Source: Sinomonas humi | Lineage (GTDB): Bacteria > Actinomycetota > Actinomycetes > Actinomycetales > Micrococcaceae | NCBI RefSeq assembly: GCF_000802235.1 | Contig: NZ_JTDL01000078.1 | Span: 1-32,294 of the forward strand | DNA length: 32,294 bases | Direction of reading: 5' to 3' | Shown here: one piece after another, positions 9,327-32,294 of the stretch | How positions within the stretch are numbered: position 1 is the first letter of the stretch | Layout of the letters: the number at the start of each line of letters is the position of its first letter | Notes under the pieces: generated by a model | Told to the model about the DNA's origin: nothing | Databases searched by the model: none | What the model saw: the letters and a program-made list of their open reading frames with translations, nothing else | Program-made: the position numbers and the translations under genes

Positions 9327-9438
9327 GCGATCCCTCACGGGACGAAATGTCGAGGTTCCCGGTCGACGTCCGAGAGGTGGATGCGGACTGGATGGCGGAG
9401 TCACCGGGACTTGACCGAAGTCAGCACAAAAGGACGCG

Positions 9439-13070: not shown

Positions 13071-13337
13071 GCCGCCAGACTACGGGCGGCGACCCTCTCC
13101 GCCCTGCCGCGCCACGGTGTTTGTGCGAGCGTTGTACATCCGCGGAGCGGACTCTTGGACGGAAGCCGCGCATGAGGTTTCGAAAACCGCACAACTACTC
13201 ATCGGAGGAGCAAGCTATACATTTACCCGGGGGTAAATGGCGTGTCGTCCCCGGGGCGGTGCCCGGGTCCTTGGCAGACTGGGGTCTGGTTCCCCGAGGT
13301 TTCGGGGTCGCTGCGCTGGGCGGGGGAGGGAGTGGTC
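13071..13337. other. Probable oriT / divergent regulatory region
   Basis: The 267-bp gap between the AT-hook-like gene and mobC is where a mobilizable element normally carries its transfer origin. It contains a perfect 20-bp palindromic hairpin (13220-13239), a smaller one, GGTTT-CGA-AAACC (13176-13188), and several CCCGGG-rich repeats. No nic consensus that I know well is visible, so the nick site is not assigned. The same region must hold the promoters for both divergent operons. Confidence 0.45.
13220..13239. repeat. Perfect inverted repeat in the mob intergenic region
   Basis: CATTTACCC and GGGTAAATG are perfect complements around a 2-bp GG centre, in an otherwise GC-rich gap. It lies about 100 bp before mobC, directly after TATAC. 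It could be the relaxase recognition hairpin of oriT or an operator controlling the mob genes. Confidence 0.6.
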
Positions 13338-13727
13338 GTGGCCGAGCCGAAGGCAGCTCGTCTTGGGAAGTCGCGGCGCGACAGCACCCCGGGTGGGCGG
13401 ACCAGGAGGGTCGAGGTGTACGTCACGGAGGCGGAGAAGGCGGCTCTGGTTGTGCGTGCTTCGCAGGCGAACGTGAGCGTGCCGCGGCTGCTGTTCGAAG
13501 GCGCGTTCGCGGCGGCGGGGGAGGCCGCTCATGACCGGCGCAATCTGGCCGCGGAGCTGCTGGGGATCCGGACCCTGCTGGGTGCGGTGTCGAACAATGT
13601 GAACCAGATCGCCCGGCACGCGAACGCGACCGGGGAATTCCCGGACGACGCTGCCGCTGCCGTGGCCGTGGCGCGCCGGCTCATGGCGCGGATCGACGAG
13701 GCCGTGGTGGCGGTGATGCGTCCATGA
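13338..13727 (+). CDS. mobC: MobC-type relaxosome accessory protein
   Basis: A 129-aa protein of the plasmid mobilization relaxosome (MobC) family. It opens with a basic segment and a predicted ribbon-helix-helix-like strand, RRVEVYVTEAEKAAL, then RASQANVSVPRLLFEGA. The family core, LLGIRTLLGAVSNNVNQIARHANATGEFP, is clear. MobC helps separate the strands at oriT and guides the relaxase. GTG 13338 is chosen because GGAGG lies about 7 bases upstream; the open frame continues further up without a better site. It overlaps the relaxase start by 4 bp (ATGA), so the two are coupled. Confidence 0.85.
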   Translation: MAEPKAARLGKSRRDSTPGGRTRRVEVYVTEAEKAALVVRASQANVSVPRLLFEGAFAAAGEAAHDRRNLAAELLGIRTLLGAVSNNVNQIARHANATGEFPDDAAAAVAVARRLMARIDEAVVAVMRP

Positions 13728-15334: not shown

Positions 15335-15499
15335 CTCCCGTGAGACCGGGGCAGCGGGCCTGGCGAACCGCGGCGCGTCGGTGCAGCGGGGCTAGATCCT
15401 CGCATGGAACCGGGGGAGGCGGCCCTGGGCTTGTACACGAGACTCGGCCTTAACGACGGGACGGGCGGCGCTTGCATGGGTCTGGCCCTTCTGGCCGTG

Positions 15500-16151
15500 C
15501 TGGCCGCACTCTGAGCGAGGCCGAAGGGCACTACCAGCGGGGCCGCGCCGCCTACCTCGTCCAGGGCCTGGCCCAGGACGCAGCCTGGGCCGACAGCCGC
15601 TACGCCCGCGCCCTGCATCAGGGCGGCCGAGCCGGCCCAACGGGCCTTCGAACTGGCGCTGCCTCCGCGCTGCACAGGGACGCAGTCCGGTTCCAGTTCC
15701 GAACGGCTCCCGAGCGCATTCGCCTGGGCGGGACGGGCGTCGGCAGCTCTGGATCTGGCCTTTGCCCTCGCCGCCGAGGCCGGGGACCCGGCCCTGGTCG
15801 CAGACCTGGTCGAGACCCGCCTGAACGGGACCGCCCACACCACCCCAGCCGACCAGAACACCATGGACCTGGCCTTCGCCCACCGCGCCTTCGGGATCGA
15901 AGCCGCCGAAGCTGCACCCACCTGCAGGCCCACACCCTTCGCCACCTCCGACCCGGACGAAGGCCTGGCGCTCACCGCTGCGGGCCCCGCCGCCCTCCTA
16001 GCCACCGCCACTCTGCCGGTGGTACCCCCACCCCCGCTCCTGGCAACCGGCCCACAACCCACCAGCCCGTCTGGTTCTGGCCCGCTTCGCTGCCGCACTC
16101 GCTCCTACCGGCCGCCTCTGGAGAACCGGATGGCCCATCCGGACCTGGTGA
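15500..16151 (+). pseudogene. Decayed C-terminal part of a CHAT-associated TPR protein
   Basis: Pieces of one protein appear in shifting frames. LVQGLAQDAAWADSRYARAL matches the region before the C-terminal motif of the TPR protein at 17513-21034 (YRSQGLHLDTAW-type). Next come AEPAQRAFELALP, DAVRFQFRTAPERI, and then AALDLAFALAAEAGDPALVADLVETRLN, matching the DLIExxxN module of both TPR proteins. A Pro-rich linker with LPVVPPPPLL follows. In yet another frame the end reads ARLVLARF ... PIRTW-stop (TGA 16149-16151), the same terminal residues as the intact copies. At least three frameshifts are needed and the N-terminal TPR array is absent. About 165 bp between the relaxase and this remnant hold nothing recognisable. 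Confidence 0.75.
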
Positions 16152-16173
16152 TAACAACGGCCGGTCAATCGTC

Positions 16174-17035
16174 CTAATCGTCGCGGGAAACGGCAGGCGC
16201 GGCGCCCAGCAACAACCCGGATCAGCCGGGTCGGCTACCACTTCCACTTCGGACGGCGAGACGTAGCGCGAGTGGTCGAACCGGTCGATGTTGGGCCAAG
16301 ATCCGATTCGGGGGCCTTTTCCCGCAGCGAGTTCCATCCCGAGCCGCTCCAGGTCCACTGGGTTGAGCCGGGCCAGCCGTGCAGGGGGCGGCACCACTCG
16401 AACGGCACCGCGGAGATACCGTAGCCGGCTCCGAGGAGGCCGCCGGTGATGGCGGCGACGGTATCGGTGTCGTTCCCGCCGCGCGCTGCCTCCTCGAGCG
16501 CGGCCCGGAGGTGCGCGGGGCCCTTGCGCCTGGCAGCGGTGGAGGCGATTGCGCTTCAGGCTCCTTGGAATGCCTCGACTACCCCGCCGTTGTTCGAGAA
16601 GTCCCGCGGCCGGGACGCCTCGGCCACAGTGATGCGCTGCTCCCATAGCCGGACCCGGTCGGTATCCAGAAACGCCAGCCCTGCACGGACGTTGAGCCGA
16701 CTCGTGAGGACGGCGTGGCGAATGGCGAGGCACCACAGGCGAAGGACGTCGGCTCTTCAGACACGCTCCGTGATCTCCGGGTCGCGTCGCGCCTCGCCGC
16801 GGGAACGGACGACGGCGAGTCGACCGCCGCGCCCTTCGTCGCCCATTCCGTGGCTCAGCTCTAGCGGGCTGGACCGGGTGCCGGGAACAGCTCGCTCATG
16901 CGCACCGCGGGCAGGGGAGCGCCGAACTCGTAGCCGGCGCCTGCAGGCATGTGCAACCCTGCGCGGATAGGATTCAACTCCGGCGTACCGCGGATGGCCG
17001 CAAGCCAGAAGAACACGTTGGAGAGGTAGCGTTCA
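16174..17035 (-). pseudogene. ADP-ribosylglycohydrolase-family pseudogene
   Basis: The minus strand carries clear pieces of the ADP-ribosylglycohydrolase (DraG/MacroD-independent ARH) family: NNGGVVEAFQGA, then after an in-frame TGA (16556-16558) SAIAST, then RGGNDTDTVAAITGGLLGA, the family's metal-binding GGDTDT-like signature, then AVPFEW and LHGWPG. One base is missing after HGWPG; the shifted frame continues LNPVDLERLGMELAAG. Another shift leads to LLLGAAPAVSRDD-stop at 16174. The TGA sits where a Trp (TGG) is usual, so it is probably a point nonsense mutation. An upstream segment with NVFFWLAAIRGTPELNPIRAGL is in frame with the start region but is of unclear origin. Several lesions make function unlikely. 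Confidence 0.7.
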
Positions 17036-17512: not shown

Positions 17513-20500
17513 TCACCAGGTCCGCACGGGTTGCGGGGCTGTGTCGAGTGTGGGGTAGTCATCGGAGCCCCAGGTGTTGAGGGCCGTTCGAGGCCGATGG
17601 TGCGTGGGGATGAGGAGGGGCGGCGGGGGCGAGGCCGGCAGTTCGGCGTCTGCAAGGAGCGAGCCCGTTCCGGCCGTGGCCGGGACGGGGGGCGCTAGTT
17701 CTCTGTGGGCTTGCTCTGTACCTGGCAGGAGGTCCGCGCCGGGTCTGTGGTGTTCGTGGTCACCGGGTGCGGTTTTGTCGATGCCGGCGGTGCTGCGGTG
17801 GCTGGTGGAGTTGATGTGGGCTTCGATCAGGTCCGCGAGGGTGGAGTGCTGTGCGGCTGACGCGGCGAGGTCGAGGGCCACGATCGATGCTTCGCGTGCT
17901 TGGGCTGCCCATTGGATCCGATCGGATGCGCTGCTGAATTGGAATCGCCTGGATTGCAGATACTGAGCCGCTGGTATTGCGAGTTCGAGAGCGGTTTGGA
18001 GAATTTTTGATTTCTTGTCGGGGACGGCTTTCTTGGCACTGTGGTGGTGGAGCAGAAAAGCCCACCGGCTTGAGGTCCAGGCCGTGTCCAAGTGCAGTCC
18101 TTGGCTTCGGTAGAGCTTCACGGCGGTAGTGAACGCGTCCCAGCCGCGGTCCTGTTCCCCGTTGAGGTACAGGACCATGCTGAGGGAACGGTAGGTTCTG
18201 GCTTGATGTTCGACAAGGCCCAGAGCGGCGAATTCGGCGAGGGCGTTGTAGAGCATGGTCTGGGCGGTGCCGTAATGGCCTTGCGCGGCGTCCATGTCGG
18301 CGATGTTGAGCCGTGCTTGCGCGAGCGGTCGTTTCAAGCCTAATTGCATGTAGATAGCGAAGGCGTCGTAGTAGGCGTCCTCGGCTTGTTTCCATCGTCG
18401 TGAGCTTTGGTAGAGGGCGCCCAGGTTGTTCAGGGTGGCTGCAACCTCCGTCTTGCGGTCGAGGTTCCGGAATATGGCCAGGGCCTGCTGGTAGGTCGCT
18501 TCTGCCTCTTGCAGCCTCCGGGAATTCTGGTAGAGGCCGGCCAGGTTGACCATCGTTTGTCCGGCCGATTCGTCCAGGCCCAGCGAACGTCTGGTCTTGA
18601 TGGCCTGAAGGTAGGTGGTTTCGGCGTCCTGCCAGCGTCCTGTTTCCCGCTGTAGGACACCTAGGTTGTTCTGGATGGCTGCGACCTCCTGGCGTAGGCC
18701 CAGGCTTTGGTAGCCTTCGATGGCTTGTCGATGGTGGTATTCGGAGCCTTTCCACCGCCCGGTTTCCCTCAAGAGGTTGCCTAGTTGTGCGTGCGTGCGC
18801 GCGCTGCCTGCCGCCAGGTCGAGCCGTTCGTATACCGCAAGGTTTTTTTGCAAGAGGTCCTCGGCCTCCGGCCAACGTCCGGTGGTCAGGAACAGGGACG
18901 CGAGGTTTCCGCAGTTCAGGGCTGCGTTTTCGTGCAGGTCAAGTCTCTGAAAGAGGTCGATCGCCGACGTGTAGGCAGCTTCGGCTTCTTCCCATCGCTC
19001 GGTCCGGTGGTAGAGATCACCCATGTTGGCGCGTGTGCTGGCCGCGTCCTTGCTGAGGCCAAGTCTTTCGAATTCTCTCCAGGCGTATGCGTAGGCCTCT
19101 TCTGCCTTCTTCCACTGCCCGGCTTCGGAGTAAAGGATGCCCAGGTTCTCCCAGGCCACCGCAGTTTCCTGGGGCAGCCCCAGGCGTTCGAAGCCTTCCC
19201 GCGCCAGCACGAGCACTTGTTCGGCATCTGCCCGGCGTTCTGAATTCCGGTAGAGAGTGCCGAGGTTCAGCCGGGCCCGGGCGATATTCTCGAGAAGCCC
19301 GAGTTGTTGGTAGTCCTCCAGTGTCTGCAGGTAGGCGGCCTCGGCGTCCTGCCACCGCCCCGCGGTCTGGTAGGTTCTGGCCAACGTCTCCCGGGCCAGG
19401 GCTTGTTCGCCGGCTCTGTCGGAGCCGGCGAGGCCATCCACTGCTTCGATGAGAGCCGTCTCCGCCTCATCCCATCGTTCCAAGTGGGTATGGATCCCGC
19501 TGAGGTTCACCTGCACCCTGGCCGCGTCCAGGCCCATGCCGAGGCTTCGGTAGGAATCAAGAGCCTTGCGAAAGGCTGCTTCGGCATCACGCCAACGTCC
19601 GGATCTGGCACGAAGGATGCCCAGATCGTTATGGATGACGGCTTCCTCCGCTGTGGGTCCGACCGGGTTGCATCGTTGCAGGGCTTCTGCGAATTTTTGC
19701 TGCGCTTCCTCCCACCGCCCGGAGTCCCGGTAAAAATTCGCCAGCCTGCCCAACCCGCCAACACTCTCACCGGAGCGCTCTGGACCCTCCAGGGAAAACA
19801 GTTCGAGGTAGGTCTCCTCCGCTTCCTCCCACCGCGCCAGCCGGGTCTGCACATCCGCGAGGCTTCCCAATACCCGGCATGTCGCGTCCATGAGTTCCAG
19901 GCCTTTGAACCCGGCCACGGCTTGAATGATGACGGCTTCGGCGTCGCTCCATCGTCCGCACTCAATGTACAGGTCGCCAAGGTTGTTCAGGGTCTTCGCT
20001 GTGCCCTCGGCAGCGCCCGAACTTTGATACCCTGCGATGGCTTCGCGGTACGCGGTTTCGCTTTTCTCCCAGTTCCCGGCTTTCTTGTGAAGGTTGCCCA
20101 GGTTGTTCCTGGCGCTTGCCTGCTCTTGGGCGAGGCCGAGGTCCTCGAATGCGTCAATGGCCCGTTGATAGGTTTCTACGGCTTCGTCCGTCGCGCCGGC
20201 TTTCGCGTGGAGGTCCGCCAGACGTGTCAGTGTCACGGCCGCGTTCCGCCGGTAGCCGTTGACCTCGTACAGCGAACTCAGCTCGGCGAGGGTGCCGGCG
20301 GCCGCGGACAATTCTTCCGTTTGCTCATACAGGGCAGCCACGTTCTTCATCGCGTCGGCGAGGGCTTGCACATTGTCGGCGGACACCCTCTTGCCCGGGC
20401 TCCACCCGCCAGCGCGCATGTTGAGGTCAAGGCACTGCAGCCACAGGTTGAGCTTCTCTTCGGCATTTCGGCTTGCCTCTGCACTGGTGCGGGCGAGCTG

Positions 20501-21034
20501 CGCAGCCTGGCTATAGTCTCCGTCGTCCCGGAGGCTGCCCGTGACCTCCCGGAGTTCGTCCAATGCCTCATCGATGCGACCCTGCATCCTGAGCGCCGTT
20601 GCGAGAAACGTGCAGGTCAAGGCAGTCACTTCGGGATCTTCAAGGGCAACGGCATGGACCGCTGCGTCCCGCAGGAGCAGCTCCGCTGCTCCGGCGTCGC
20701 CCAGCATCATGTGAGCCAGAGCCAGATTGTGCCCGGCCGCAGCAGATTCACGGTGGAAGCCCTTTGACCCGGTCCAGGGCGCGATCGGCGCCAGAAGCTC
20801 CAGCGCAGCTTGGGGGTTCCTGTCTCTCAAATGCATAACCGTGGCGCTGTTGAAGCATTGAGCGGCGAGGACTTCATATTCAGGGCAGCCGAGGAACTCG
20901 TCACCTGCCGCCTTGTACGTTCGCGCCGCCTCCTGGCAGTCGTCGACGCGGGATAGTCTTGACGCCTCACTCCGCAGCCGGTCAGCCCGCTCGAATATCG
21001 CCTTCCCGTCCAAAGACGCATCCTTCCTCGCCAT
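17513..21034 (-). CDS. Large TPR-repeat protein of the CHAT locus (left copy)
   Basis: A 1173-aa soluble protein. Residues 1-260 are helical without a regular period. From about 265 to 990 there are about 18 tetratricopeptide units of 40 residues with a consensus like NNLG-x-LY-x-x-x-GRW-x-x-AE-x-x-Y-x-x-AI and LGL between units, as in kinesin-light-chain-type TPRs. A C-terminal helical module follows, with RRFQFSSASDRIQWA, ALDLAAS and LADLIEAHINST (about 1067-1077). Then come a His/Pro-rich linker and a 42-residue tail (1132-1173) with LPASPPPPLLIP and the terminal RTW. TPR arrays of this kind sense or scaffold partners of CHAT proteases. The start ATG 21034 has no strong ribosome site; the frame stays open further upstream through a TPR remnant, but that part is not TPR-like. 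Base composition is lower in GC than in the CHAT operon. Confidence 0.85.
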   Translation of the reverse strand: MARKDASLDGKAIFERADRLRSEASRLSRVDDCQEAARTYKAAGDEFLGCPEYEVLAAQCFNSATVMHLRDRNPQAALELLAPIAPWTGSKGFHRESAAAGHNLALAHMMLGDAGAAELLLRDAAVHAVALEDPEVTALTCTFLATALRMQGRIDEALDELREVTGSLRDDGDYSQAAQLARTSAEASRNAEEKLNLWLQCLDLNMRAGGWSPGKRVSADNVQALADAMKNVAALYEQTEELSAAAGTLAELSSLYEVNGYRRNAAVTLTRLADLHAKAGATDEAVETYQRAIDAFEDLGLAQEQASARNNLGNLHKKAGNWEKSETAYREAIAGYQSSGAAEGTAKTLNNLGDLYIECGRWSDAEAVIIQAVAGFKGLELMDATCRVLGSLADVQTRLARWEEAEETYLELFSLEGPERSGESVGGLGRLANFYRDSGRWEEAQQKFAEALQRCNPVGPTAEEAVIHNDLGILRARSGRWRDAEAAFRKALDSYRSLGMGLDAARVQVNLSGIHTHLERWDEAETALIEAVDGLAGSDRAGEQALARETLARTYQTAGRWQDAEAAYLQTLEDYQQLGLLENIARARLNLGTLYRNSERRADAEQVLVLAREGFERLGLPQETAVAWENLGILYSEAGQWKKAEEAYAYAWREFERLGLSKDAASTRANMGDLYHRTERWEEAEAAYTSAIDLFQRLDLHENAALNCGNLASLFLTTGRWPEAEDLLQKNLAVYERLDLAAGSARTHAQLGNLLRETGRWKGSEYHHRQAIEGYQSLGLRQEVAAIQNNLGVLQRETGRWQDAETTYLQAIKTRRSLGLDESAGQTMVNLAGLYQNSRRLQEAEATYQQALAIFRNLDRKTEVAATLNNLGALYQSSRRWKQAEDAYYDAFAIYMQLGLKRPLAQARLNIADMDAAQGHYGTAQTMLYNALAEFAALGLVEHQARTYRSLSMVLYLNGEQDRGWDAFTTAVKLYRSQGLHLDTAWTSSRWAFLLHHHSAKKAVPDKKSKILQTALELAIPAAQYLQSRRFQFSSASDRIQWAAQAREASIVALDLAASAAQHSTLADLIEAHINSTSHRSTAGIDKTAPGDHEHHRPGADLLPGTEQAHRELAPPVPATAGTGSLLADAELPASPPPPLLIPTHHRPRTALNTWGSDDYPTLDTAPQPVRTW

Positions 21035-21384
21035 GGTGAGCCGAGCATACCGGTGGAGGCGTGCCTCGTGTTCGAGGTGGCCGGCCTTCTGGGCCAGAGC
21101 CGGGCGCGGGCGTCCCGTCGCCCTTCCCGGAATCCGCGAGCGGGACCAGAGGGCGTAGCGGGTGGGTGTTCCAGGGGACCCGGAGACCGTGGGCCGATCC
21201 CGTCTGGACAGCAGGGCCGTGGTCCCGGCGGCGGTGGGGCCGGGGCATCGGCAGGGCCCAGGGGTGGTTAAGGGGTGGGGGTGCGGGCCCAGGCGGCTTC
21301 GGCGCCCTCGATCCAATAGCGCGCGCCACAGCCAGAGGGCCTTCCGGTGCTGTCCCGGCGGCGTCGCCCTCTCGTGCTGGGGTG

Positions 21385-21849
21385 GGGTGCTGTTGAGGTG
21401 GGCTTCGACCAGGTCCGCCACCATGATCCTGTGACACATCTGTGGGACGTGAGGCACGGCGTCTTCAGAGATCGAGTTGCCGCGGACTAGGCCGAGTTGC
21501 TTGAGGCCGCGGCCTCCTCCAACCGCCCCGCCTCCTGGTGCACGATCCCGAGGTTCCTGCGGACCGTGGCCTGGTCCGCGGGCAGGCCCAGCTGGGTGTA
21601 CAGGTCCAGGGCGGCCCCGTACTCGGTCCGTGCCTCCGCCCACCGCCCCGCCATTTCGAACAGGTCGCCGATTCCTTCGTGCACGTCGGCGGCGAGGCGG
21701 AGGACCGCAGCCCCCTCGGGGGTATCTGGCACAGCCCTCAGCACCTGAATGATGGTTCGGAGCTCCCCCCTGATTTGCTCTGGGGCCATGATGCTGTCTG
21801 CGAGGCTGTCAAGGAGGCGTTGCAGGCGGTCGGACGGGTCGTCTTCCAC
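21385..21849 (-). pseudogene. Internally deleted TPR gene remnant
   Basis: A GTG start at 21849 with AAGGAGG 7 bases upstream opens a 120-codon frame (to TAG 21487-21489). It contains a TPR-like segment, GDLFEMAGRWAEARTEYGAAL and LGLPADQATVRRNLGIVHQEAG, equivalent to the N-terminal units of the TPR family. Past the stop, another frame resumes with VADLVEAHLNST (about 21385-21420), the C-terminal module motif of the same family. So the middle of the gene was lost. Downstream to 21035 the Pro-rich linker may persist in degraded form (PAPPPL). The 120-aa piece could still be translated as a short TPR peptide. Confidence 0.65.
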
Positions 21850-21883
21850 GGATAGGCCTCCTTCCTTCCATTCTCTTCCGCAA

Positions 21884-21903
21884 GGCCCGCAAGTGCACGG
21901 GCC
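21884..21903. terminator. Hairpin after the 613-aa gene
   Basis: GGCCCG and CGGGCC flank an 8-base loop, 116 bp downstream of the stop of the minus-strand gene ending at 22019. There is no T-run. It is a weak terminator candidate. Confidence 0.3.
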
Positions 21904-22018
21904 GAGGCGGCCTGCCACTTTCTCGGGGGCGAAGCCGGCGGCGGAGTGGCCGTTCCTTGAGGAGTGGCTCGCACAAGGGGAGGCCCAGCAGCGGGCTGAT
22001 GCGGGCAGTGCGGGCCCG

Positions 22019-23860
22019 TCAGGGGACCAGGCGGCCAGGTGATCCGGAGGCGGAGTTCGGGTAGTCGTCGTGGATGTTCACAGTCGAGATCTCGAACGAC
22101 CCGTCGGGCAGGCTCCAGTAGTGCAGCCTGAGGGCCGCGGGGGTGTTGTTCTCGATTCTTGCCCGCCAGGCCAGGGCGCCGTCCCAGCGCTGGAGCTGCT
22201 TCTGCTTGGTCTTCTTCGTGCACAGGGGCTTGATGCTCAGGGTTCGCCATCGTTCCTCTCGGCGGATGAGGATGTCGACAATGGTCTCGAGGGCCTTGCT
22301 GCGGCGGTCACCGGCGACTGCGGAGGCATCGAGGGTGGCTGGCAGGTCGGGGCCGATCCAGTAGCGGGACGGAGCGGGGTAGCGGTCCTTGTCGGTGGCT
22401 AGGACGTAGCGGGCCCAGGTCGTGTAGATCTCGTGTCTGAGGCCTTCGAAGGGGTCGGCGAAGAGCTCCCGCTGAGGCTCGGCTGCGGCCGTTCTGGCGA
22501 GGGCCTTGAGCTTCTTCTTCAGCCCTCCGACTTCGGTCCGCAGGCGCCGGATCTCCTGATCGGCCCTGTCCAGCTGGTGTTTGAGCTCGGTGCCCTCCTG
22601 GAGTGCCGTGGCAAGCTGGGAGGCCATCCGGGCCCGGGCCGCCTCGGTGGGCTGGGCGTCATGGGCCGTGTGCACGCGGCCGGCTTGCGGGGCGGGCACC
22701 GGGCCCGGGGCCTCCCGGCGGTCTGATGCTGCCTCGGTCGAAGGGACTTCTGGCACCGCAGGGTCCTCGGCCTCCGGCGGCTGGGCCGCTCCGACTGAGG
22801 GGGAGGTGGGCGACGAATCCGGGTCTCGGGTTCCCGGGGCTTCCGGTTCCGCTGCGGCTGCTGGGGGGGCGTCAGCGGCACGGGTTGGGGCCGGCGCGTC
22901 AGGGGGGGCGGCGTCCGGCTCTGTGTCGGGCGGGCTCATCTGGCCTTGGGCTGCAGGGAGGGGCTTGGGGAGCGATCGGCCGAGAGCGAGCCATGGCGGG
23001 CCCTCGGCGAGGAGCGGTGGGGCCTCGGCGGTGGGATGCTCGGCTGCCTCGGTCAGGGAGAGCCGGACTGCTCCGGATTCGTGGTAGTAGAGGGCGCACA
23101 CGACCTCGCCCTCCTCGGCGACCCCCTCGGGGACGGGGACGGTCCAGGTCGATCCGGGGAAGAGGGTGAGTTCGGCTGTGCTGGCGGTGATGTTCCGGGC
23201 CAGGGCCAGGACGGTGCTGCCGGGCCGGTAGACGAGGCTGAGGCGGTGGCGGATGAGCGCTGGTGCGATGTCGATCATTCCCTCGGGCAGCGGGATGCCG
23301 GTGACGCGCTGCCCTACTGCGAGATACCACTCGGGCGGGATCCCGGGCAGTGTGTTGTCTGCGTTGATGGTGACCAGTGCGCCGTCCTCGGCGGTGGCCA
23401 GGGCGTGCCCGTCCGGGATGAAGCCGCGCACGGTGACGGTGCGGGGACCCGGATCCGGGGTGGTGCCCGTTCCTGCGGCCTTCTTGGCAGCGCACCCCAG
23501 GGCGTCGTCCATTGCCCTGAGGGCGGCGGCCTCGGCCGAGCGGCGGTCGAAGGCGACGCGGGGCCTGAACCGTGGAGGGGCGCCGCCTGCGAGGGCGTGG
23601 GGCTCGTAGACGCGCGCCGCGTTGCCGTATACGCCGGCCTGGGGGGGCAGGAGTCCTGCGAGCCCGTGCGCGGCCGTGTCGTCCAGGACGAGGACGGCGG
23701 CGATGCCCTTCAGGTCGCGTTCGAGGCCCTTGGCGTCGATGACGGCCTCGGGGGCGTGGCGGTTCTGGGAGACGACCACGACCGGGTCACGCCGTCCCGC
23801 GCGGAGGATCTCCTTGGCCACCGTGTCGCCGGCCATCGTCGCGGTCGCGGTGGGTGCCAT
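22019..23860 (-). CDS. Unknown multidomain protein of the CHAT locus (613 aa)
   Basis: I do not recognise the family. Visible layout: an N-terminal alpha/beta part (1-125) with DPVVVVSQNRHAPEAVIDAKG, a VLVLDD strand and VYGNAARVYEP; a beta-rich part (about 138-275) with VTVRGFIPDGHALAT that could be small barrels; a disordered Pro/Ala/Glu-rich linker (about 300-400); a coiled coil (405-460) with LKHQLDRADQEIRRLRTEV; and a C-terminal domain (465-613) with PSRYWIGPDLPATLDAS, VDILIRREERW and LHYWSLPDGSFEIS. ATG 23860 has a perfect GAGGAGG 5 bases upstream and is preferred over ATG 23902 or TTG 23923. It is divergent from the CHAT operon across 172 bp, so it may be co-regulated with it. No catalytic motif is evident; an adaptor or sensor role is possible. 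Confidence 0.75.
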   Translation of the reverse strand: MAPTATATMAGDTVAKEILRAGRRDPVVVVSQNRHAPEAVIDAKGLERDLKGIAAVLVLDDTAAHGLAGLLPPQAGVYGNAARVYEPHALAGGAPPRFRPRVAFDRRSAEAAALRAMDDALGCAAKKAAGTGTTPDPGPRTVTVRGFIPDGHALATAEDGALVTINADNTLPGIPPEWYLAVGQRVTGIPLPEGMIDIAPALIRHRLSLVYRPGSTVLALARNITASTAELTLFPGSTWTVPVPEGVAEEGEVVCALYYHESGAVRLSLTEAAEHPTAEAPPLLAEGPPWLALGRSLPKPLPAAQGQMSPPDTEPDAAPPDAPAPTRAADAPPAAAAEPEAPGTRDPDSSPTSPSVGAAQPPEAEDPAVPEVPSTEAASDRREAPGPVPAPQAGRVHTAHDAQPTEAARARMASQLATALQEGTELKHQLDRADQEIRRLRTEVGGLKKKLKALARTAAAEPQRELFADPFEGLRHEIYTTWARYVLATDKDRYPAPSRYWIGPDLPATLDASAVAGDRRSKALETIVDILIRREERWRTLSIKPLCTKKTKQKQLQRWDGALAWRARIENNTPAALRLHYWSLPDGSFEISTVNIHDDYPNSASGSPGRLVP

Positions 23861-24032
23861 GAGGACCTCCTCGGTGGTGTGTTCTCCAAGACAGTCCACC
23901 ATGGCCGGGGCCTCTGCCGCCAACAGTGCCCTGCTCTACACAGGTAATGCATCCCGGGAAGATGGCCGACGGCAGCGGGAGGGGTTAGTCTTCCGACAAC
24001 GGATCCAGCGGGCAAGGGGGAACCAGCGCACC
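23861..24032. promoter_or_regulatory. Divergent promoter region of the CHAT locus
   Basis: This 172-bp gap must hold promoters for the 613-aa gene and for the three-gene + strand operon. TAGTCT at 23986-23991 is a possible -10 element for the + operon, placing a start about 35 bp before ATG 24033. No convincing -35 element or operator repeat was found. Confidence 0.35.
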
Positions 24033-26168
24033 ATGACTTCCTATCTCGACATCGCGCGCGGGTTCTACGGCGAACGGCCCAAGCTCGTGGAGGGCATGCC
24101 CGACGGGATCGAGGCTCTCGCGCACAGCCTGGCCCGCCAGCTCGCCGGCGACCTGGCAAGGAAGGGCCCGGAGTACAGGGCGGCCACCACCGAGGACCTG
24201 CCCCCTGCGGCGGCGGAGGCCATCACCGCCGGCCAGGTCAGCGCCGCCTTCCGCAGGTGCGGCAGCACGATGCAGGACCGCCTGGGCCTCCTGCGCGAGG
24301 AGATCCGCGCGATGCTCGACTCCCCCGAGGCTCTGCCCCCGGGCCTCTCCGCCGAACGGATCCGGGAGGCCGAGACCCACCTGCGCAATCATGAACGGCG
24401 CGACGTAGCGGCCGCCCGGAAGATGGTCCTGACCATCAGCGAGGCCGCGGACGAGTACTGGAACAGCGTCATCGACTATGCCCGGCTGAATGCCACCGCG
24501 CCCGCACCCGATCTCGCCGCGCTCATCGAAGAGGCCCGCGAGGCCGAGTGGGAAGCGGCTGCAGCAGTGCGCGAGGGCCTGCACGAGGCACTGGCCTTCG
24601 CCCCCGTGGTCGACGGGGATTCGTACACCCTCGCCTCCGACCACGACCCCGAGAACCCGCGGCTCCGAGGCGAACCGGCTGGGGGCAGGAGCCTGCTCGA
24701 TTGGCGTCCGCAGGAGCTCGGCGTGCACTACCCGCCGGCGACCGACCTGGCGGCGCGTGCCCGGGAGGTCGCCTCCAGGATGGCCTACCCCTTCGGGCTC
24801 AAGGACCGTCAGTCCGTCGTCACGATGGTCTCGGCCGCCCTCCTCGTCCACGGCGTCGCTTCCAGTGGGCGGATCCGGAAGAAGGCAGCCCAGGTGCGTC
24901 AGGAGGCCGGCGGCAACCCCATGACGGCAGCTGCCCTAGCCCACGGACGGCACCGCGAGAGCACCGCGGTGTTCTCCGGCCTTGACTTCCTCCGCGTCCT
25001 CGGAGGCGCCCTCGTGTCCCGTGCGGCAGACCCCGGTGAATCCGGCGCGGGATGGCCCGAGGGCGCCCTCAAGGAGCTCCTCCGGGGCGGGGCCCAGACG
25101 GATGAGGGCCGGCAGCTGATCGCGTCCGCGGCACCCCTCGTAGAGGAGCCCGCCTGGACCGACAATGCCTGGGACTCGGTGGGGCACCAGATCGAAGAGA
25201 TCCTCCGCCGGGACCTCCTCGCCCAGCGGGGAGGCGAGCCCGTCCCGCGCGACGGGGAAGACGCTGCCGAGGGCGCTCCCATGGACGACGGCACCGGACA
25301 CTTCTACTCCGCCCACGCCGACCACGCGCGATCGAGCATCAGGATGCGGTGCCTCCACGACTTCCGGAACGTCCTGGTGAACACTGAGACCGGAAAGACC
25401 GCGGCAGCCGCTGGAGAGGACCCCGACGACGGAGAGGAGCCGGGGGCCTTCGAGCGCCGGTCGCTGTTGGAGACCAACAGCTTCCTGGGCTCCAAGGTGC
25501 ACCATATCGGCGGCCAGGAGCTGGGCCGATTCCGCAGGATCAACGAGAAAGTCCTGACCAGGATCCGTATGGAGCACCGGTCCCGCACCCATCCCGGCGC
25601 GGCGGTCCCCTCCGCCCGGGGGCACTCGTTCCATGAGGACACCGCCCCGGAGCGGCTCACCAAGGCCCTCCACGACCAGTCCCGGAACGCATTGCGCGAG
25701 GCTGGCCTGGAACCGGGCCTGTGGCTGGAACAGGGCGTGGACTCCGCCCTGGTGCCCCTGCCGGTCCTCCACAACCGCGGCCTCGCCGGGGTCGAGTCGC
25801 CCGAAACGGTCGACGAGGCCCACACCCTCGACCCGCTCTGGCTCATCGCCCTGCGCTCGGCCACGGTGGACAGGCGTCTGGCCGCGCTCTCGACAGCCCC
25901 CGGGACGGCCGCCTACCATCCTGTGACTGAGGCGGCCCGCGCGGCCGTCGCCATCCCCCTCGGCGGACGGCTCCTGCGCGAGGCTGCCCAGACCCTCCGG
26001 GCCTTCGCAGCGCATCCAGGGGCGAAAGCCTCCGCTGCGGAGACCCTGGACTCCGCCCTGGCCCAGTACGCTGGAAGGGTGTGGAAGGACTCCCCCGAGC
26101 GGGCCGAGGCCTGCCTGCACCTGGCGGCTGGCCTCATCCTCGACGCCTACACCCCCCAGGAAGCCTGA
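24033..26168 (+). CDS. Unknown 711-aa protein, first gene of the CHAT operon
   Basis: A 711-aa, mostly helical, Ala/Glu/Arg-rich soluble protein with no signal peptide, membrane segment or motif that I know. Segments such as EYWNSVIDYARLN, EVASRMAYPFGLKDRQSVVTMV, VHGVASSGRIRKKAAQVRQEAGGNPMTA (split here only for description) and FERRSLLETNSFLGSKVHHIGG look conserved in style but match no catalytic signature. GC-rich third positions and a 34-bp gap to the next gene support a real gene and co-transcription. AAGGGGG lies 12 bases before ATG 24033, a long spacing. Position suggests a partner or target of the CHAT protease; helical partner proteins are known in CHAT/TPR-associated conflict systems, but I cannot confirm homology. 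Confidence 0.8.
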   Translation: MTSYLDIARGFYGERPKLVEGMPDGIEALAHSLARQLAGDLARKGPEYRAATTEDLPPAAAEAITAGQVSAAFRRCGSTMQDRLGLLREEIRAMLDSPEALPPGLSAERIREAETHLRNHERRDVAAARKMVLTISEAADEYWNSVIDYARLNATAPAPDLAALIEEAREAEWEAAAAVREGLHEALAFAPVVDGDSYTLASDHDPENPRLRGEPAGGRSLLDWRPQELGVHYPPATDLAARAREVASRMAYPFGLKDRQSVVTMVSAALLVHGVASSGRIRKKAAQVRQEAGGNPMTAAALAHGRHRESTAVFSGLDFLRVLGGALVSRAADPGESGAGWPEGALKELLRGGAQTDEGRQLIASAAPLVEEPAWTDNAWDSVGHQIEEILRRDLLAQRGGEPVPRDGEDAAEGAPMDDGTGHFYSAHADHARSSIRMRCLHDFRNVLVNTETGKTAAAAGEDPDDGEEPGAFERRSLLETNSFLGSKVHHIGGQELGRFRRINEKVLTRIRMEHRSRTHPGAAVPSARGHSFHEDTAPERLTKALHDQSRNALREAGLEPGLWLEQGVDSALVPLPVLHNRGLAGVESPETVDEAHTLDPLWLIALRSATVDRRLAALSTAPGTAAYHPVTEAARAAVAIPLGGRLLREAAQTLRAFAAHPGAKASAAETLDSALAQYAGRVWKDSPERAEACLHLAAGLILDAYTPQEA

Positions 26169-26202
26169 TGGAACCAGCGACCCCGCGAAGGAAGGCCGCC
26201 AG

Positions 26203-27651
26203 ATGACCGATGCCCCTCCCACCCTGCGGGTCGTCCGCGAAGGGCCCCGGGTACGCTTGGCCGGCCCCGCCGCCGGGCCCGTCCCCACAGCCACGGTCGA
26301 GGCGGGCGAGTGGGTCCGCGTCGAAGTGGACCCCACCGACGTCCGGGCCCCCGTCGCAGTGGACATCCTCGACCTCGACGCAGGCGACCTCGACCTGCGC
26401 GACCTCCTGGGCTCGCCGGCCGTGGACCTCCTCGCCGACCCGGGCACGGGCGAGATCCCGTTCGTTCCCGGCCCCTTCTGGGAGGCCTTGGCGGCGTGCG
26501 CGTTCCAGCGGTGGACCCTGCACTGGAACTGCTTCCCCCTCGACCCGGAGCTGATGGCCGTCGACCGTCTCGCCGCCGCCGCCGGCGCCGGCCCGTTCGG
26601 CCTCGTCACCGTCCGCGAAGCCCGTCCGATGGCACTGGGCGCGCTGCGCCGGCTCTCCGCGCTGGAACGCGGCGGGTCCCTCTCGCCGGCGGCAGCGCAC
26701 ACCGTCGCCGCCGCGGCCGCCGCCGGGCCGCAGCCCGTACAGCCGGAGCTCGTCGGGGAGGATGCCGCCGATGCCGGGGAGGACCCGGCCGATGTGGAGA
26801 CCGTGGTGGACTCCCGTCTGGGCTACCTGCGCCGGGGCGCGCCGGTGGCGCACACTCCCTACCTGAGCGCCGACGGGCAGGTCGAGCGGCTCGTAGACTC
26901 TCCGGACTGGCGCCTGACCGGCATCGGCATGGCTTCGACCGCCGAAGACATGATCCTCGCCGCCTACACCGACGCCTCCCGCGAGGAGATCCTCATCCGC
27001 GTCCCGATCCAAGGGGCCGAGGCCCGTCCGGGGGCAGGTACATTCGACCCGGCCGATGTGCCGTACTACCACGGCATCATCACTGACGCCGTCGAGGGGG
27101 AAGTCCTGGCGTTCTTCCCGCTCGCGCCCAACGCCGACGGGAACGCGTTCGAAGGCCGCGGCCCCCTCGCCCGCCCGCTGGTCCCCACTGACGTCCTGGA
27201 CATCCGTCACCCGGACTCCGCCCAGACCGTCCAGACCGACATGGCCCAGCGCGGGGTCGACCGGGTCCGCCGCTGCGCGGCGCGGGCCTTCTCCGTCCAC
27301 CGGCTCCGCACCGTTGCCGAGGCCGGGGGGGCCCAGGAAGAGGTACAGGGCCGCCTCGCCGAGACCGCGTCCTTGGCCTGGAAGGAGACCGCCCAGGCCG
27401 CAGCGGCCCTGGCCGACTTCCTGGCCTCCAGGGACGCAGGCACGGCGTACGCGTTGAGCTGGGTCAAGGAGGCCCGCAACCGGCAGCGCCAGGCCCTGGC
27501 CGAATCGCCCCTCCAGTGGCACCGCACCAGCGCCAAGGCGATCCGCGTCGAGCCCATGCCCGCCCTGCAGGGCCAGCGGACCGTCCCGCCCACGGTGGCG
27601 GAGCTGGACCTCGCGGGCGCTCTGGCCGTGCCCCAGGCCCTGTCCGTATGA
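26203..27651 (+). CDS. Unknown 482-aa protein, second gene of the CHAT operon
   Basis: A 482-aa protein of unknown family. Residues 1-85 look beta-rich and acidic (LRVVREGPRVRLAGPAAG, then WVRVEVDP and VAVDILDLDAGD). The centre has WTLHWNCFPLDPELMAVDRL and YYHGIITDAVEGEVLAFFPL, and the C-terminal 130 residues are helical (VDRVRRCAARAFSVHRLRTV). No active-site signature is visible. AAGGAAGG lies 7 bases before ATG 26203. Its stop overlaps the CHAT start as ATGA, so it is translationally coupled to the protease, which suggests fixed stoichiometry and perhaps a direct complex, such as an inhibitor or zymogen partner. Confidence 0.8.
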   Translation: MTDAPPTLRVVREGPRVRLAGPAAGPVPTATVEAGEWVRVEVDPTDVRAPVAVDILDLDAGDLDLRDLLGSPAVDLLADPGTGEIPFVPGPFWEALAACAFQRWTLHWNCFPLDPELMAVDRLAAAAGAGPFGLVTVREARPMALGALRRLSALERGGSLSPAAAHTVAAAAAAGPQPVQPELVGEDAADAGEDPADVETVVDSRLGYLRRGAPVAHTPYLSADGQVERLVDSPDWRLTGIGMASTAEDMILAAYTDASREEILIRVPIQGAEARPGAGTFDPADVPYYHGIITDAVEGEVLAFFPLAPNADGNAFEGRGPLARPLVPTDVLDIRHPDSAQTVQTDMAQRGVDRVRRCAARAFSVHRLRTVAEAGGAQEEVQGRLAETASLAWKETAQAAAALADFLASRDAGTAYALSWVKEARNRQRQALAESPLQWHRTSAKAIRVEPMPALQGQRTVPPTVAELDLAGALAVPQALSV

Positions 27652-29048
27652 GCGGGGCCACGCGGACCGAGGTCCTCTTCCGCATGGCCGACAGCGGCAG
27701 CACCTACAGCTACTGGCGCTGGCTGGACGACCCCGACAATCCCCGCCATAGGGTCATCCCCCGCGGGGCCGTCGCCGAGGCCGAGGCGCTCATCGCGGCC
27801 GCTATGGTCGACCGGGCCGAGGAGGATGGGCCCGACCGGTACGACCCGACCCGCCGGGCGCTGGGGGACGGGCCCCTCTCGAGCCCCGAACGCGAAGCCC
27901 CCTGGTCCGCCCAGCTGGCCGATTGGCTCCTCCCCCCGGATCTGGCCCGGGATCTGGACCGCCGCAGCGCCGCGGGGGAGGACATCCTCCTGCGCATCAT
28001 CCCCAGCCCCAGCCTGGCCCGGGTGCCCTGGGACCTGCTGCCGCTGCCGTCGGGGCGCCGCATCCTCGAGGCGGTCACCGTCCGACTCGATGCCCCGGCC
28101 GTGGTCAACGCCAACCGCGGCCGCTTCCCCCAGCCCTGGAACCCGCAGGCACCGGACCGGCCCCTGTACATCCTCGAACCCCCCCACCGGCCCGGCCGCC
28201 ACGCGGGAAACGAGGTCATCGGCCCCGACGCGAGGGCGCGACTGGCCGAGCAGCTCGCCCACCACGGTGCAGTGCCCGGCGCCGAACTGGACCGCACCAT
28301 GCTCGGGCGCCTGCTCCGGGGCGAGCCCACCGACGAGTACACGGCAGACACGACAGGCTTCGCCCCGGGCGAACTGCCCACCAGGCTGTTCTACTACGGT
28401 CACGCGGACTCGACCCCGAACGAGCCGGGATCCGCCGCCATCCACCTCACCGACGGCCCCGCCACCTTCGGGAACGCCTCCTCCTCGGACGGGCACACCC
28501 CTTTCACCGCCCTAGACCTCCTCCGCGGCACGATGGACGTCTTCCGCCGGGACGGCGACGGACTCGCCTACCCCTACCCCGGGAACGTCCCGGGACACGC
28601 GATCTGGCCCGTTCCCGCCCGCGTGGCACTGATCGGATGCGAGAGCGGCGCCGACCACCGGGCCCTGGAGACCTTCGGCCTGGTCGTCGCCCTCCTCAAC
28701 GCCGGTGCCGAGACCGTCACATCCACCCGGTGGACCCTGCCCACCGACAGCGCCTTCCACGACGCCTGTGGCACTTCCAGGCTGGTCACCACCGAGACGG
28801 CCCTCGCAGTCGACTCAGCCCACACCGAACCCGACCCAGTCCAGGCCCTGCGGCGGTGGCAGCTCCAGCAGCTCCATGCCTGGACCAGCGGTACCGGCGG
28901 CCCGGCCTCCAGCCCCCTGGTCTGGGCAGCCCTCACAACCCACTACTCACCCACCCCAGAACCCCTCACCGAGGAGGAGATCCAGGCCGGGCGCGCCCTC
29001 TACACGGACACCGGCACGGATCCCGAGGCGGCCCCGCCGACCGAATGA
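27648..29048 (+). CDS. CHAT-domain caspase-like protease
   Basis: A 466-aa protein whose C-terminal two thirds form a CHAT (caspase HetF associated with TPRs) peptidase domain. The family signatures are visible: SLARVPWDLLPLP (122-134), the His motif RLFYYGHAD (His252) and the Cys motif VALIGCESGADHRALETFGL (Cys331), followed by VVALLNAGAETVTSTRW, the usual AG-x-x-x-V-x-(S/T)-x-W strand. Most CHAT proteins carry TPRs in the same chain; here the domain is separate and the TPR proteins are encoded on both sides. The N-terminal 100 residues are unassigned. It is the third gene of the operon and starts inside the stop of the second. Likely role: cysteine protease effector or processing enzyme of a conflict system. 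Substrate unknown. Confidence 0.88.
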   Translation: MSGATRTEVLFRMADSGSTYSYWRWLDDPDNPRHRVIPRGAVAEAEALIAAAMVDRAEEDGPDRYDPTRRALGDGPLSSPEREAPWSAQLADWLLPPDLARDLDRRSAAGEDILLRIIPSPSLARVPWDLLPLPSGRRILEAVTVRLDAPAVVNANRGRFPQPWNPQAPDRPLYILEPPHRPGRHAGNEVIGPDARARLAEQLAHHGAVPGAELDRTMLGRLLRGEPTDEYTADTTGFAPGELPTRLFYYGHADSTPNEPGSAAIHLTDGPATFGNASSSDGHTPFTALDLLRGTMDVFRRDGDGLAYPYPGNVPGHAIWPVPARVALIGCESGADHRALETFGLVVALLNAGAETVTSTRWTLPTDSAFHDACGTSRLVTTETALAVDSAHTEPDPVQALRRWQLQQLHAWTSGTGGPASSPLVWAALTTHYSPTPEPLTEEEIQAGRALYTDTGTDPEAAPPTE

Positions 29049-29084
29049 AAGGAGCTTGGCAGGGCGTCTCTGCGTGTGCGGCCT

Positions 29085-29101
29085 CCGGAACCCCTTTCCG
29101 G
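29085..29101. terminator. Small hairpin between convergent CHAT and TPR genes
   Basis: CCGGAA and TTCCGG surround a 5-base loop in the 75-bp gap between the CHAT stop and the convergent TPR stop. It could serve as a two-way terminator, but the stem is short and has no T-run. Confidence 0.35.
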
Positions 29102-29123
29102 CACGTCGCCCGGGTTGAGCTGC

Positions 29124-32100
29124 TCACCAGGTTCGGATGCACGACGCCACCGCGGGCAGCAGGAGGTCTCCGTCCGACCGGAAGCGGGCCAGGGCCACAC
29201 GGGCTCCCAGCGCCGAGGGAACGAGCAGGTTCGGCGGAGGAGACACAGGCAGCGGTGCATTCGTCGGCATCGCAGTGACCCCGCCTGCGGTAGCTGCCAG
29301 GCTCGCCTCGGCGATCGGCCCGATCCTCGCGGTGACCTTTCCCTTTCCGTTTTCAACGGCGGGGCCGGAGGCCATCCGGTGCAAGGCTCCGTCTGACCCG
29401 CTGACCCCGAAGACGGCCGCGTTGATCTGGACCTCGATCAGGTCCGAGACCGTCTGGGGGTCTCCCGTTCCCGCAGCGACATCGAACACGAGTCGTCGGC
29501 CCCACCAATAGGTGCGCTGCCATGCGACTCTCTGAGCGGCCGAGATGAAGTCGAAGCGGACGCTGTCCAGGAACCTGAGAGCGGGCAGCACGGCAGCGAG
29601 GAGTCCCCGGCCCTTTTCACGCCGGTCGCCTTCGTCCTCCTTCTTCCACAGCTCATCGACCACGTCGAGCTTGAGCAGCGCGATCTCCTGGGGCAGCCCT
29701 GCTCGGCGGTAGGCGCGTTCCGCGGAATCAGCGATGAGCAGCGCTTCGCGGGAGGCTCCCGGCTGCTCTGCAGTCTCGCTCGCCAGTTCGCGGAGAGAGT
29801 CGCCGAGCCGCTCGAACTGCCCCTGGGCCTCGGCCGATGCGGCCGCCTCGCGCAGAGCGGCGAGATATCCTTCGGGATCGCCGAGCGGCTTCAGGCACCA
29901 AGCCTTCATCATCAGAAGTGCGGGCCTGCATCCGGGCATGTCGTGGCGCTGGGCATATCCCAAGGCGAAATCCACAATCTCGAGGGCGGACTGGGACTTG
30001 TCGAGTGCTAGGTACGCAAGGGCGCGGAGGGTCTCGGCTTCGACGGCCAAGGCAGAAAGGTCCAATTCCATAGCCTGCTTCGCTGCGTCGTACAGGAACT
30101 GTGCTGCGCGCCTGAGCCCGTATTCAGTGACCCAGGGGTGGCTGATCATTCCCTGAGCCATCAGAGTCAGCCCTGAAATCTTCTGCACTGGGGAGGAGAC
30201 CTTCTGTGCGGAAGCGGCCGCCGCATTGAAGTGGTCGTATGCTTCACGTTCTCTTCCCGTAGAGAGGCAGACCATACCGAGCAGGGATTCCGCCCCACTC
30301 TGGACTTCCCATTTCGTCTGCCCTTCGGGCAGGCCAGCCGCAAGCCGGAGAGCCTCTTCGGCGCAGGCCTCGCCCTCCCGCCACCGGTCCCGGGCGAAGT
30401 ATCCTGTCCCCGCGAATCGGATGAGCAGCGCCAATGCGGCATTGCTCAGCCCGTTTCGGGCGACGAAATCAGACATGACATTGCGGTGTATCTCGATCAG
30501 GCCCTCCCAGTCCTGGCGGTAGAGGGCCTCCATTGCCAATATGAGGGCAGAGGCACCTGTGTCTCCGGTCCGCGAGGCCCTCTGCCGGGGTCGCCCGGAT
30601 CCGTCCAGACTGAAGTCGTTCATCATACCAAGGGTCGTTCGGGCGAGCCTGAGCTCGGGGATCTCCTCGGACGCAGCCGGATCAGAGTCCACACCGTCGA
30701 GGATGTCCCGTGCAGCTGCAATTTCACCGTACTGGACGAGCAGCGCTGCGAAGGTCCCTGCGGCCTTGAGGGCGGACTTCCTGTCGGAGCCCGCCGCTGC
30801 CTTTGCCATGGCACCGAAGTACCTGGCTTTGGCTGCGTTCTGATGGCTGTGGAGCAGGTTGCGGGCAAGGAGAACTTGGCTTTCGACGGCGTCTTCGAGG
30901 CGCCCAGCACGGGTGTACTCGAAGATTGCCCGCTCGAAGGCCTCCGTGGACCTCGTGGTCTCGCCGGCCCCCCAGAGGATCCGCGCGATTTTATCGTATG
31001 CGTCTCCTCTGGTTCCGCCAGCCTCGGGGAGAGAGCGCAGCTGCCGCAGTGCCCCTCGCACGACATCCACCGCCTCGTGTGCACGGTTCTCGCGGTCGAG
31101 GTTATCTGCCAGCCTGAGCTTGGATCGGGCAGCCTCTTGCGCGTCGCCGTTGCTGGCGTAGAGGCGGGAGGCGAGGCGGTAGGCGGAGGACGAGTCCCTG
31201 TACCGCCCGAGGCTTTGGAGGCTGATCCCGATGCCCCAGTGGGCTCCGGCGACCGTTCCCCATTCGGCCTCGGCCCCCCGGGCGAGGACCTCCTCGTAGA
31301 CCGCGACAGCGTCCCCGTGCCGGCCCTGAGAGCGGATGGAATCCGCTGCCCGGGCCAGAATCCGGACCGCGTCCGCGGCCCGGCCGAGCCGCTCGTACAT
31401 GTCTGCGGCGGTGCGGCGGCTGTCCTCGGCCTCGGCGTGCCGGTCACGAGCCTGGAAGGTGTCGGCGATCCACTCCAAGGCGAGAGCGGCGTCTGCCTGG
31501 CTCTCGTGCCCGGTGTACTGGGCCAGGGCCGAGCGGAACGATGCCTCGGCCTCCTCGTACCGTCCGAGGCGGTACAGGCTGATCCCGATGCCCCAGTGGG
31601 CTCCGGCGACCGTTCCCCATTCGGCCTCGGCCCCCCGGGCGAGGACCTCCTCGTAGACCGCGACAGCGTCCCCGTGCCGTCCCTGCGAGCGGATGGACGC
31701 CGCTGCCCGGGCCAGAATCCGGACCGCGTCCGCGGCCCGGCCGAGCCGCTCGTACATGTCTGCGGCGGTGCGGCGGCTGTCCTCGGCCTCGGCGTGCCGG
31801 TCACGAGCCTGGAAGGTGTCGGCGATCCACTCCAAGGCTAGAGCGGCGCTTCTCTGGCTCTCGTGCTCGGTGTACTGGGCCAGGGCCGAGCGGAACGATG
31901 TCTCGGCCTCCTCGTACCGTCCGAGGCGGTACAGGCTGACCCCCATGCCGAAGCGGGCCTCGGCGACCGTTCCCCATTCGGCCTCGGCCCCCCGGGCGAG
32001 GACCTCCTCGTAGACCGCGACAGCGTCCCCGTGCCGTCCCTGCGAGCGGATGGATGCCGCGGCCTTCTGGAGGTTCCGGAGAACATCCGCGGCCCGGCCG

Positions 32101-32294
32101 AGCCGCTTGTGCATGTCTGCGGCGGTGCGGCGGCTGTCCTCGGCCTCGGCGTGCCGGTCACGAGCCTGGAAGGTGTCGGCGATCCACTCCCAGGCGGCAG
32201 CGGGGTTAGCCTGGCTCTCGTGCCCGGTGCACTGGGCCAGGGCCGAGCGGAGCGATGCCTCGGCCTCCTCGTACCGCCCGAGATGGTACAGGCT
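29124..32294 (-). CDS. Large TPR-repeat protein of the CHAT locus (right copy, N-terminus outside window)
   Basis: At least 1056 aa; the frame is open to the window edge, so the start is outside. The visible N-terminal part is an array of three near-identical 119-residue blocks (each about three TPR helices pairs, with GRYEEAE, DTFQARDRHAEAEDSRRTAA and RSQGRHGDAVAVYEEVL). It is followed by more divergent TPR-like helices, and then by VRFDFISAAQRVAWQ and VSDLIEVQIN, the same C-terminal module as in the left copy. A linker leads to a 42-residue tail with LPVSPPPNLLVP, VALARF and the terminal RTW. It converges on the CHAT gene. Presumably a sensor/scaffold partner of the protease, with different recognition surface from the left copy. 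Confidence 0.85.
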   Translation of the reverse strand, partial: SLYHLGRYEEAEASLRSALAQCTGHESQANPAAAWEWIADTFQARDRHAEAEDSRRTAADMHKRLGRAADVLRNLQKAAASIRSQGRHGDAVAVYEEVLARGAEAEWGTVAEARFGMGVSLYRLGRYEEAETSFRSALAQYTEHESQRSAALALEWIADTFQARDRHAEAEDSRRTAADMYERLGRAADAVRILARAAASIRSQGRHGDAVAVYEEVLARGAEAEWGTVAGAHWGIGISLYRLGRYEEAEASFRSALAQYTGHESQADAALALEWIADTFQARDRHAEAEDSRRTAADMYERLGRAADAVRILARAADSIRSQGRHGDAVAVYEEVLARGAEAEWGTVAGAHWGIGISLQSLGRYRDSSSAYRLASRLYASNGDAQEAARSKLRLADNLDRENRAHEAVDVVRGALRQLRSLPEAGGTRGDAYDKIARILWGAGETTRSTEAFERAIFEYTRAGRLEDAVESQVLLARNLLHSHQNAAKARYFGAMAKAAAGSDRKSALKAAGTFAALLVQYGEIAAARDILDGVDSDPAASEEIPELRLARTTLGMMNDFSLDGSGRPRQRASRTGDTGASALILAMEALYRQDWEGLIEIHRNVMSDFVARNGLSNAALALLIRFAGTGYFARDRWREGEACAEEALRLAAGLPEGQTKWEVQSGAESLLGMVCLSTGREREAYDHFNAAAASAQKVSSPVQKISGLTLMAQGMISHPWVTEYGLRRAAQFLYDAAKQAMELDLSALAVEAETLRALAYLALDKSQSALEIVDFALGYAQRHDMPGCRPALLMMKAWCLKPLGDPEGYLAALREAAASAEAQGQFERLGDSLRELASETAEQPGASREALLIADSAERAYRRAGLPQEIALLKLDVVDELWKKEDEGDRREKGRGLLAAVLPALRFLDSVRFDFISAAQRVAWQRTYWWGRRLVFDVAAGTGDPQTVSDLIEVQINAAVFGVSGSDGALHRMASGPAVENGKGKVTARIGPIAEASLAATAGGVTAMPTNAPLPVSPPPNLLVPSALGARVALARFRSDGDLLLPAVASCIRTW
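31214..32284. repeat. Tandem 357-bp repeats inside the right TPR gene
   Basis: Three consecutive 357-bp units (about 31214-31570, 31571-31927 and 31928-32284) are almost identical at the DNA level; the array runs into the window edge. Marker words such as CTCGTACATGTCTGCGG recur with exactly this spacing. The unit is a multiple of three and encodes 119 residues, so copy number can change without breaking the frame. Confidence 0.85.

Follow-up and report, generated by a model that had tools for sequence, protein, structure and literature searches.

The window, one whole contig of 32,294 bp within a 4.4-Mb genome, very probably encodes a TPR–CHAT protease made in pieces. As judged from sequence, the best evidence for this split module comes from relatives in which both parts are fused in one open reading frame (ORF), together with the like ends of the window TPR proteins. 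Three close genes on the forward strand, spanning 24033 to 29048, form an operon in which CHAT is last. The A-slot gene (24033–26168; 711 aa) occupies the position of the A genes of relatives and has no detected family, and it is followed by a B gene (26203–27651; 482 aa) whose product is a relative of the B proteins found at other CHAT loci. The start of the CHAT gene (27648–29048; 466 aa) overlaps the B stop by 4 bases, and of the operon's products CHAT alone falls in a Pfam family (2.2e-11).

Two large TPR genes on the reverse strand flank this operon. TPR protein 1 (17513–21034) comprises about 1173 aa from an ATG at 21034, with Pfam TPR matches from 21007 on. TPR protein 2 (29124 to beyond 32294) comprises at least 1056 aa, also with Pfam TPR matches, and its 5′ end lies beyond the contig; its gene faces CHAT from the downstream side and is cut off by the contig end within a 357-bp tandem repeat (31200–32294, reverse strand; 3.1 copies, 92% match). 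Between TPR protein 1 and the operon sits a gene for a 613-aa protein (22019–23860, reverse strand), which is divergent from the operon. The first-pass annotation had described a free CHAT protease with 711-aa and 482-aa operon partners that it could not assign and a divergent 613-aa gene, and all of these are present in the window. It had also placed SIR2–HerA beside mobilization genes; here SIR2 and HerA genes on the reverse strand (9439–12691) gave strong PADLOC matches (HerA 1.5e-165, SIR2 6.2e-51), and NikA/MobC and relaxase genes (13242–15334, forward strand) lie upstream of the CHAT operon. A RES toxin gene, named in the same annotation, could not be recovered, as no RES family was found among the window ORFs scanned, which were part of all ORFs. 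At 3–1462 on the reverse strand there are a Mutator-family transposase gene, truncated where the contig starts, and a resolvase gene. On the hydropathy scale the limit for a 19-residue stretch is 1.6; no such stretch in the CHAT, A, B, TPR and 613-aa proteins of the window reached this value (maximum 1.54), so there is no evident membrane protein among them.

An alignment search of genome contigs with CHAT kept the best 80 of 202 relatives. These, with five of the nine plasmid records that carry CHAT relatives, 20 stretches from a survey of the window's class and the window itself, made up the 106 loci compared. The proposed catalytic pair, His252 and Cys331, was borne out, being kept in 106 of 106 CHAT ORFs with the window's own counted. 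Among the best 80 of the 202 relatives, the closest CHAT was that of Sinomonas cellulolyticus (76% identical). No relatives were found in viral contigs.

The two large window TPR proteins, both longer than 1000 aa, had been reported to have a C-terminal module in common, and a profile of this module of about 240 aa (hereafter TC) confirmed it at 17561–18286 in TPR protein 1 (frame residues 1175–1416) and at 29163–29888 in TPR protein 2 (frame residues 803–1044), both on the reverse strand. The profile matched 107 ORFs, 101 of them over at least 150 aa; the six shorter matches cover the TPR part only or a fragment. Within the window it also detected a remnant of a further TPR/TC gene at about 15.5–16.2 kb (15515–16177, forward strand; in two frames, with a match of 157 aa) and, weakly, a TPR stub at about 21.5 kb, upstream of TPR protein 1 (21487–22077, reverse strand). 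The ORF that overlaps the remnant (15472–16266) has no Pfam match; the stub has TPR matches within 21487–21918, and its TC-profile match extends over just 55 aa and covers the TPR part only. A broken TC-like stretch was also seen by eye in the translation, in frame just upstream of TPR protein 1. These copies and remnants suggest turnover of sensors.

In 92 of the 106 loci, CHAT has a TC of at least 150 aa no more than 8 kb away. Such a TC was not found in the fetched DNA of eight of the 25 mobile-type loci, three of which are short or end near CHAT and five of which have about 10 kb on either side. In nine of the 106 loci TC and CHAT are fused in one ORF, and it is on these fusions that we read the separate TPR and CHAT genes of the window as one protease in pieces; the first-pass annotation's split TPR/CHAT interpretation is thereby supported. 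In six of the nine fused ORFs the TPR part ends in ...EVPFW before CHAT begins, and in one it reads ...VQRW; the junction tryptophan is present in these seven and absent in the other two. Both window TPR proteins end in a similar way (...VRTW and ...CIRTW, matched by eye). Between the two Sinomonas-kind loci conservation is lowest in the TPR protein: TPR protein 2 and its Sinomonas counterpart are 48% identical over 818 columns, compared with 76% for CHAT and 65–68% for A and B. The S. cellulolyticus gene that resembles TPR protein 1 is 31.5% identical over the best stretch and has the opposite orientation.

Neither A nor B of the window matched a family in Pfam, PADLOC, NCBIfam or PHROG. For window B, NCBIfam gave only two rows far below the cut-off (E 0.12 and 0.18). 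A further NCBIfam comparison covered six proteins of the set, including five A or B proteins, and for these five there was no match at 0.1. Pfam searches with members of the A and B families returned scattered weak matches alone. Iterated profiles resolved A and B into three kinds, and A and B of one kind occur together in 69 (chromosomal kind), 20 (second kind) and 2 (Sinomonas kind) of the 106 loci. The second kind is hosted by Rhodococcus, Nocardia, Gordonia and Mycobacterium. A is followed by B on one strand in 91 loci, and for 90 of them the gap from one profile end to the other is below 500 bases; B without detected A was found in seven loci and neither gene in eight. In one of the loci (L061), a 285-aa frame with a hydrophobic stretch, noted by eye, and no Pfam family stands directly before CHAT in place of A and B (9104–9961). 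In a CHAT tree from which one of the 106 rows was left out as too short, the window and Sinomonas fall within a group of 31 rows (SH-aLRT 98). The remainder of this group comprises every one of the 23 second-kind rows, two chromosomal-kind rows on long branches and four rows that lack both A and B; outside it are the remaining 71 chromosomal-kind rows and three more that lack both genes.

The three kinds of B probably represent one family, a reading based on profile comparison with hhalign and on column shuffles. Window and Sinomonas B matched second-kind B over most of the length (residues 10–373; hhalign 94.6%, E 7e-8), and window B still did so after cleaning (89%, E 2.4e-6), these E-values being those of single comparisons; the score was reached by none of 200 column shuffles. 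The relation of window B to chromosomal B is weak (score 29.8, shuffle maximum 24.0), and that between second-kind and chromosomal B is weaker still (23.6, shuffle maximum 23.1 in 100). A length filter reduced the profile rows from 69 to 52 for A and from 73 to 63 for B, and the second-kind rows from 20 to 18 for A and from 24 to 20 for B. The kinds of A showed no significant relation to each other by hhalign or shuffles, and window A matched its Sinomonas counterpart alone (66% identical). A model of B, predicted from an alignment of 16 of the 20 second-kind rows and the two Sinomonas-kind rows, was of modest quality (pLDDT 61.8) and is composed of a small beta domain, helices, a beta sandwich and long helices. 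The model of chromosomal A, from 30 of 52 rows, was confident (pLDDT 83.3) and almost wholly helical. No PDB match was found for either model at E 0.001, nor a match of chromosomal A to viral models at the same threshold.

The gene set is present in Nocardia, Streptomyces, Rhodococcus, Gordonia and other actinobacteria. CHAT was detected in 37 of 394 genomes of the window's class and in one of 395 of its family, which is the window's own. Three of the nine plasmid records with CHAT relatives come from Rhodococcus, and in each a pair of hypothetical genes directly precedes CHAT. The S. cellulolyticus contig also bears A, B, the 613-aa protein (65%) and two TPR relatives. A profile of chromosomal A, searched independently of CHAT, detected 33 of the 394 genomes. 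The only one of these with A and no CHAT (G215) carries A as a short fragment with a stop, and five CHAT genomes, the window's included, have no detected chromosomal A. The window-kind B profile matched two of the 394 genomes, the window's own and one weak case. When two genera were sampled separately, chromosomal A was present in 53 of 78 genomes of the first and in 64 of 78 of the second; tree neighbours and gene content lead us to infer a Mycobacterium-like and a Nocardia-like genus. A lipoprotein gene was observed near the module in 42 of the 69 chromosomal A-bearing loci, within 2 kb in 40 of the 42, and identical counts were obtained for a membrane-protein gene; examples of such genes lie at L109:5373–6110 and L085:4349–5191, and one of the lipoproteins belongs to Pfam Myco_19_kDa (2.4e-21).

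That the genes are mere chance neighbours on an island is very improbable. A and CHAT share 32 genomes and are no more than 6 kb apart in 31 of them (Fisher p about 1e-40, relatedness ignored), and the order A-B-TC-CHAT occurs as four separate genes in 55 of the 106 loci, so that chance is already contradicted for CHAT, TC and B; as far as tested, it does hold for the 613-aa gene. Conserved co-occurrence in other genomes was seen for CHAT, TPR/TC, B and an A gene, and not for the 613-aa gene. Relatives of the latter were detected in nine of 98 genomes searched, the window's included. Of the eight others, seven match along most of the 613-aa length (two in two pieces) and the eighth over residues 14–102 only; CHAT was found in none of the eight with a query that does match the window's own genome. 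Profile scans of the neighbourhoods of two of these relatives detected neither CHAT nor TC, A or B, and among the 106 CHAT loci the gene is confined to the window and Sinomonas. It is therefore probably not a core part of the module, and its proposed membership of the system is not supported.

For the 613-aa protein, Pfam gave coiled-coil-type matches below the cut-off alone, mostly near residues 410–460, and its C-terminal part was found on 11 plasmid records. It does not match the PADLOC candidate HEC-07 at full length: the match (E 1.4e-10) links only residues 16–88 to positions 181–256 of 553. The relatives L145 (G043) and L146 (G033) are 31–33% identical and have endings like the LHYWSLPDG of the window protein, and G043 carries two copies about 11 kb apart.

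Among known systems, the module resembles Csx29 of type III-E (Craspase/CASP) in combining TPRs with a CHAT domain bearing a His/Cys pair and in having co-encoded partners. It differs in that TPR and CHAT are encoded apart, a single CHAT is accompanied by more than one TPR protein, and the partners match no named family. A type III-E Craspase was rejected for the window: among the 31 of its ORFs compared with Pfam, neither a Cas nor a sigma family was found at E 0.001, and there was no sign of Cas7-11/gRAMP and Csx30, Csx31 or a sigma factor in them. Pfam CATRA-C (PF20270) was detected in none of seven genomes or records and likewise in none of 14 control genomes. CATRA stands for caspase and TPR-repeat associated. 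These are caspase-dependent ternary conflict systems, and the module is like them in being a caspase-dependent multi-gene set, as far as the part of the source used here describes them (PMC8195603). VMAP, EACC1 and EACC2 are predicted conflict systems, also of actinobacteria, that likewise include a caspase-superfamily peptidase as a system part; unlike the window, they are not described with TPR, CHAT and a two-gene set of this kind in the parts of the two papers drawn on here (PMC7159879, PMC8195603), and the word CHAT is absent from the main text of PMC7159879.

Taken as a whole, the locus is rather probably a mobile-type actinobacterial split TPR–CHAT module in which the TPR proteins sense through TC and CHAT cuts a partner. 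Several results weigh against this: window A shows no detected relation to the A families elsewhere, eight mobile-type loci gave no TC of at least 150 aa, two fused ORFs lack the junction tryptophan, most sampled genomes of two genera carry the chromosomal type, and viral contigs gave no relative. Sensing through TC is itself somewhat better than an even prospect. TC, as the fusions predict, would dock in trans, placing the TPR superhelix against CHAT and keeping CHAT inactive, and the TPR arrays (two large proteins, remnants and repeat growth) may act as exchangeable sensors for one protease. Binding of a trigger to TPR would free CHAT, which might then cut a co-encoded partner, A and/or B, and the cleavage would start growth arrest or another programmed response. 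The choice of A or B as substrate is tentative, with perhaps one chance in three, and follows the analogy with Csx29, a TPR-CHAT protease that is switched on when target RNA binds and that has the co-encoded Csx30 as its substrate (PMC10028731). The same precedent, a substrate coded in the same locus, speaks against A and B being regulatory subunits or inhibitors of CHAT, with some host protein encoded outside the locus as the actual substrate. That arrangement is consistent with both genes accompanying CHAT in 91 of 106 loci, with no toxin family having been seen and with the hydropathy maximum of 1.54, and we consider it rather unlikely.

A defence role for the window module is plausible, given the SIR2–HerA and relaxase genes that adjoin it. 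SIR2–HerA is a known type of anti-phage defence. In addition to these genes and MobC upstream, a TPR gene with repeat growth and the lowest conservation is a trait in favour of defence, and we put action of the window copy against phages or plasmids at a little under an even chance. Presence of chromosomal A in most sampled genomes of two genera is unusual for defence, unlike the patchy spread of defence genes, and would be explained no less well by a stable cell programme. Instead of defence, the module could serve regulated proteolysis in a stress or development programme conserved on actinobacterial chromosomes, with a possible link to the cell envelope; a mobile element would then have picked up the window copy. 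The counts of 53/78 and 64/78 and the lipoprotein and membrane-protein genes near 42 of 69 chromosomal A-bearing loci point in this direction; rarity in the window's family (1/395), presence on Rhodococcus plasmids and the several TPR copies and remnants, with the sensor turnover they suggest, argue against it. On balance such a programme has perhaps one chance in three.

The split TPR–CHAT reading draws attention to TC as a recognisable CHAT-linked module and to two protein families that neither Pfam nor NCBIfam names. The nine natural fusions lead to the direct prediction that TC binds CHAT, and with this gene set a naturally split caspase-like protease can be studied. We further raise, as an unlikely elaboration, a plug-in protease alarm in which interchangeable TPR sensors with a common TC plug would fit one CHAT, the changeable A would supply lineage-specific substrates or effectors and B would be an adaptor. 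If true, this alarm would be a bacterial parallel to receptors that have one caspase in common.
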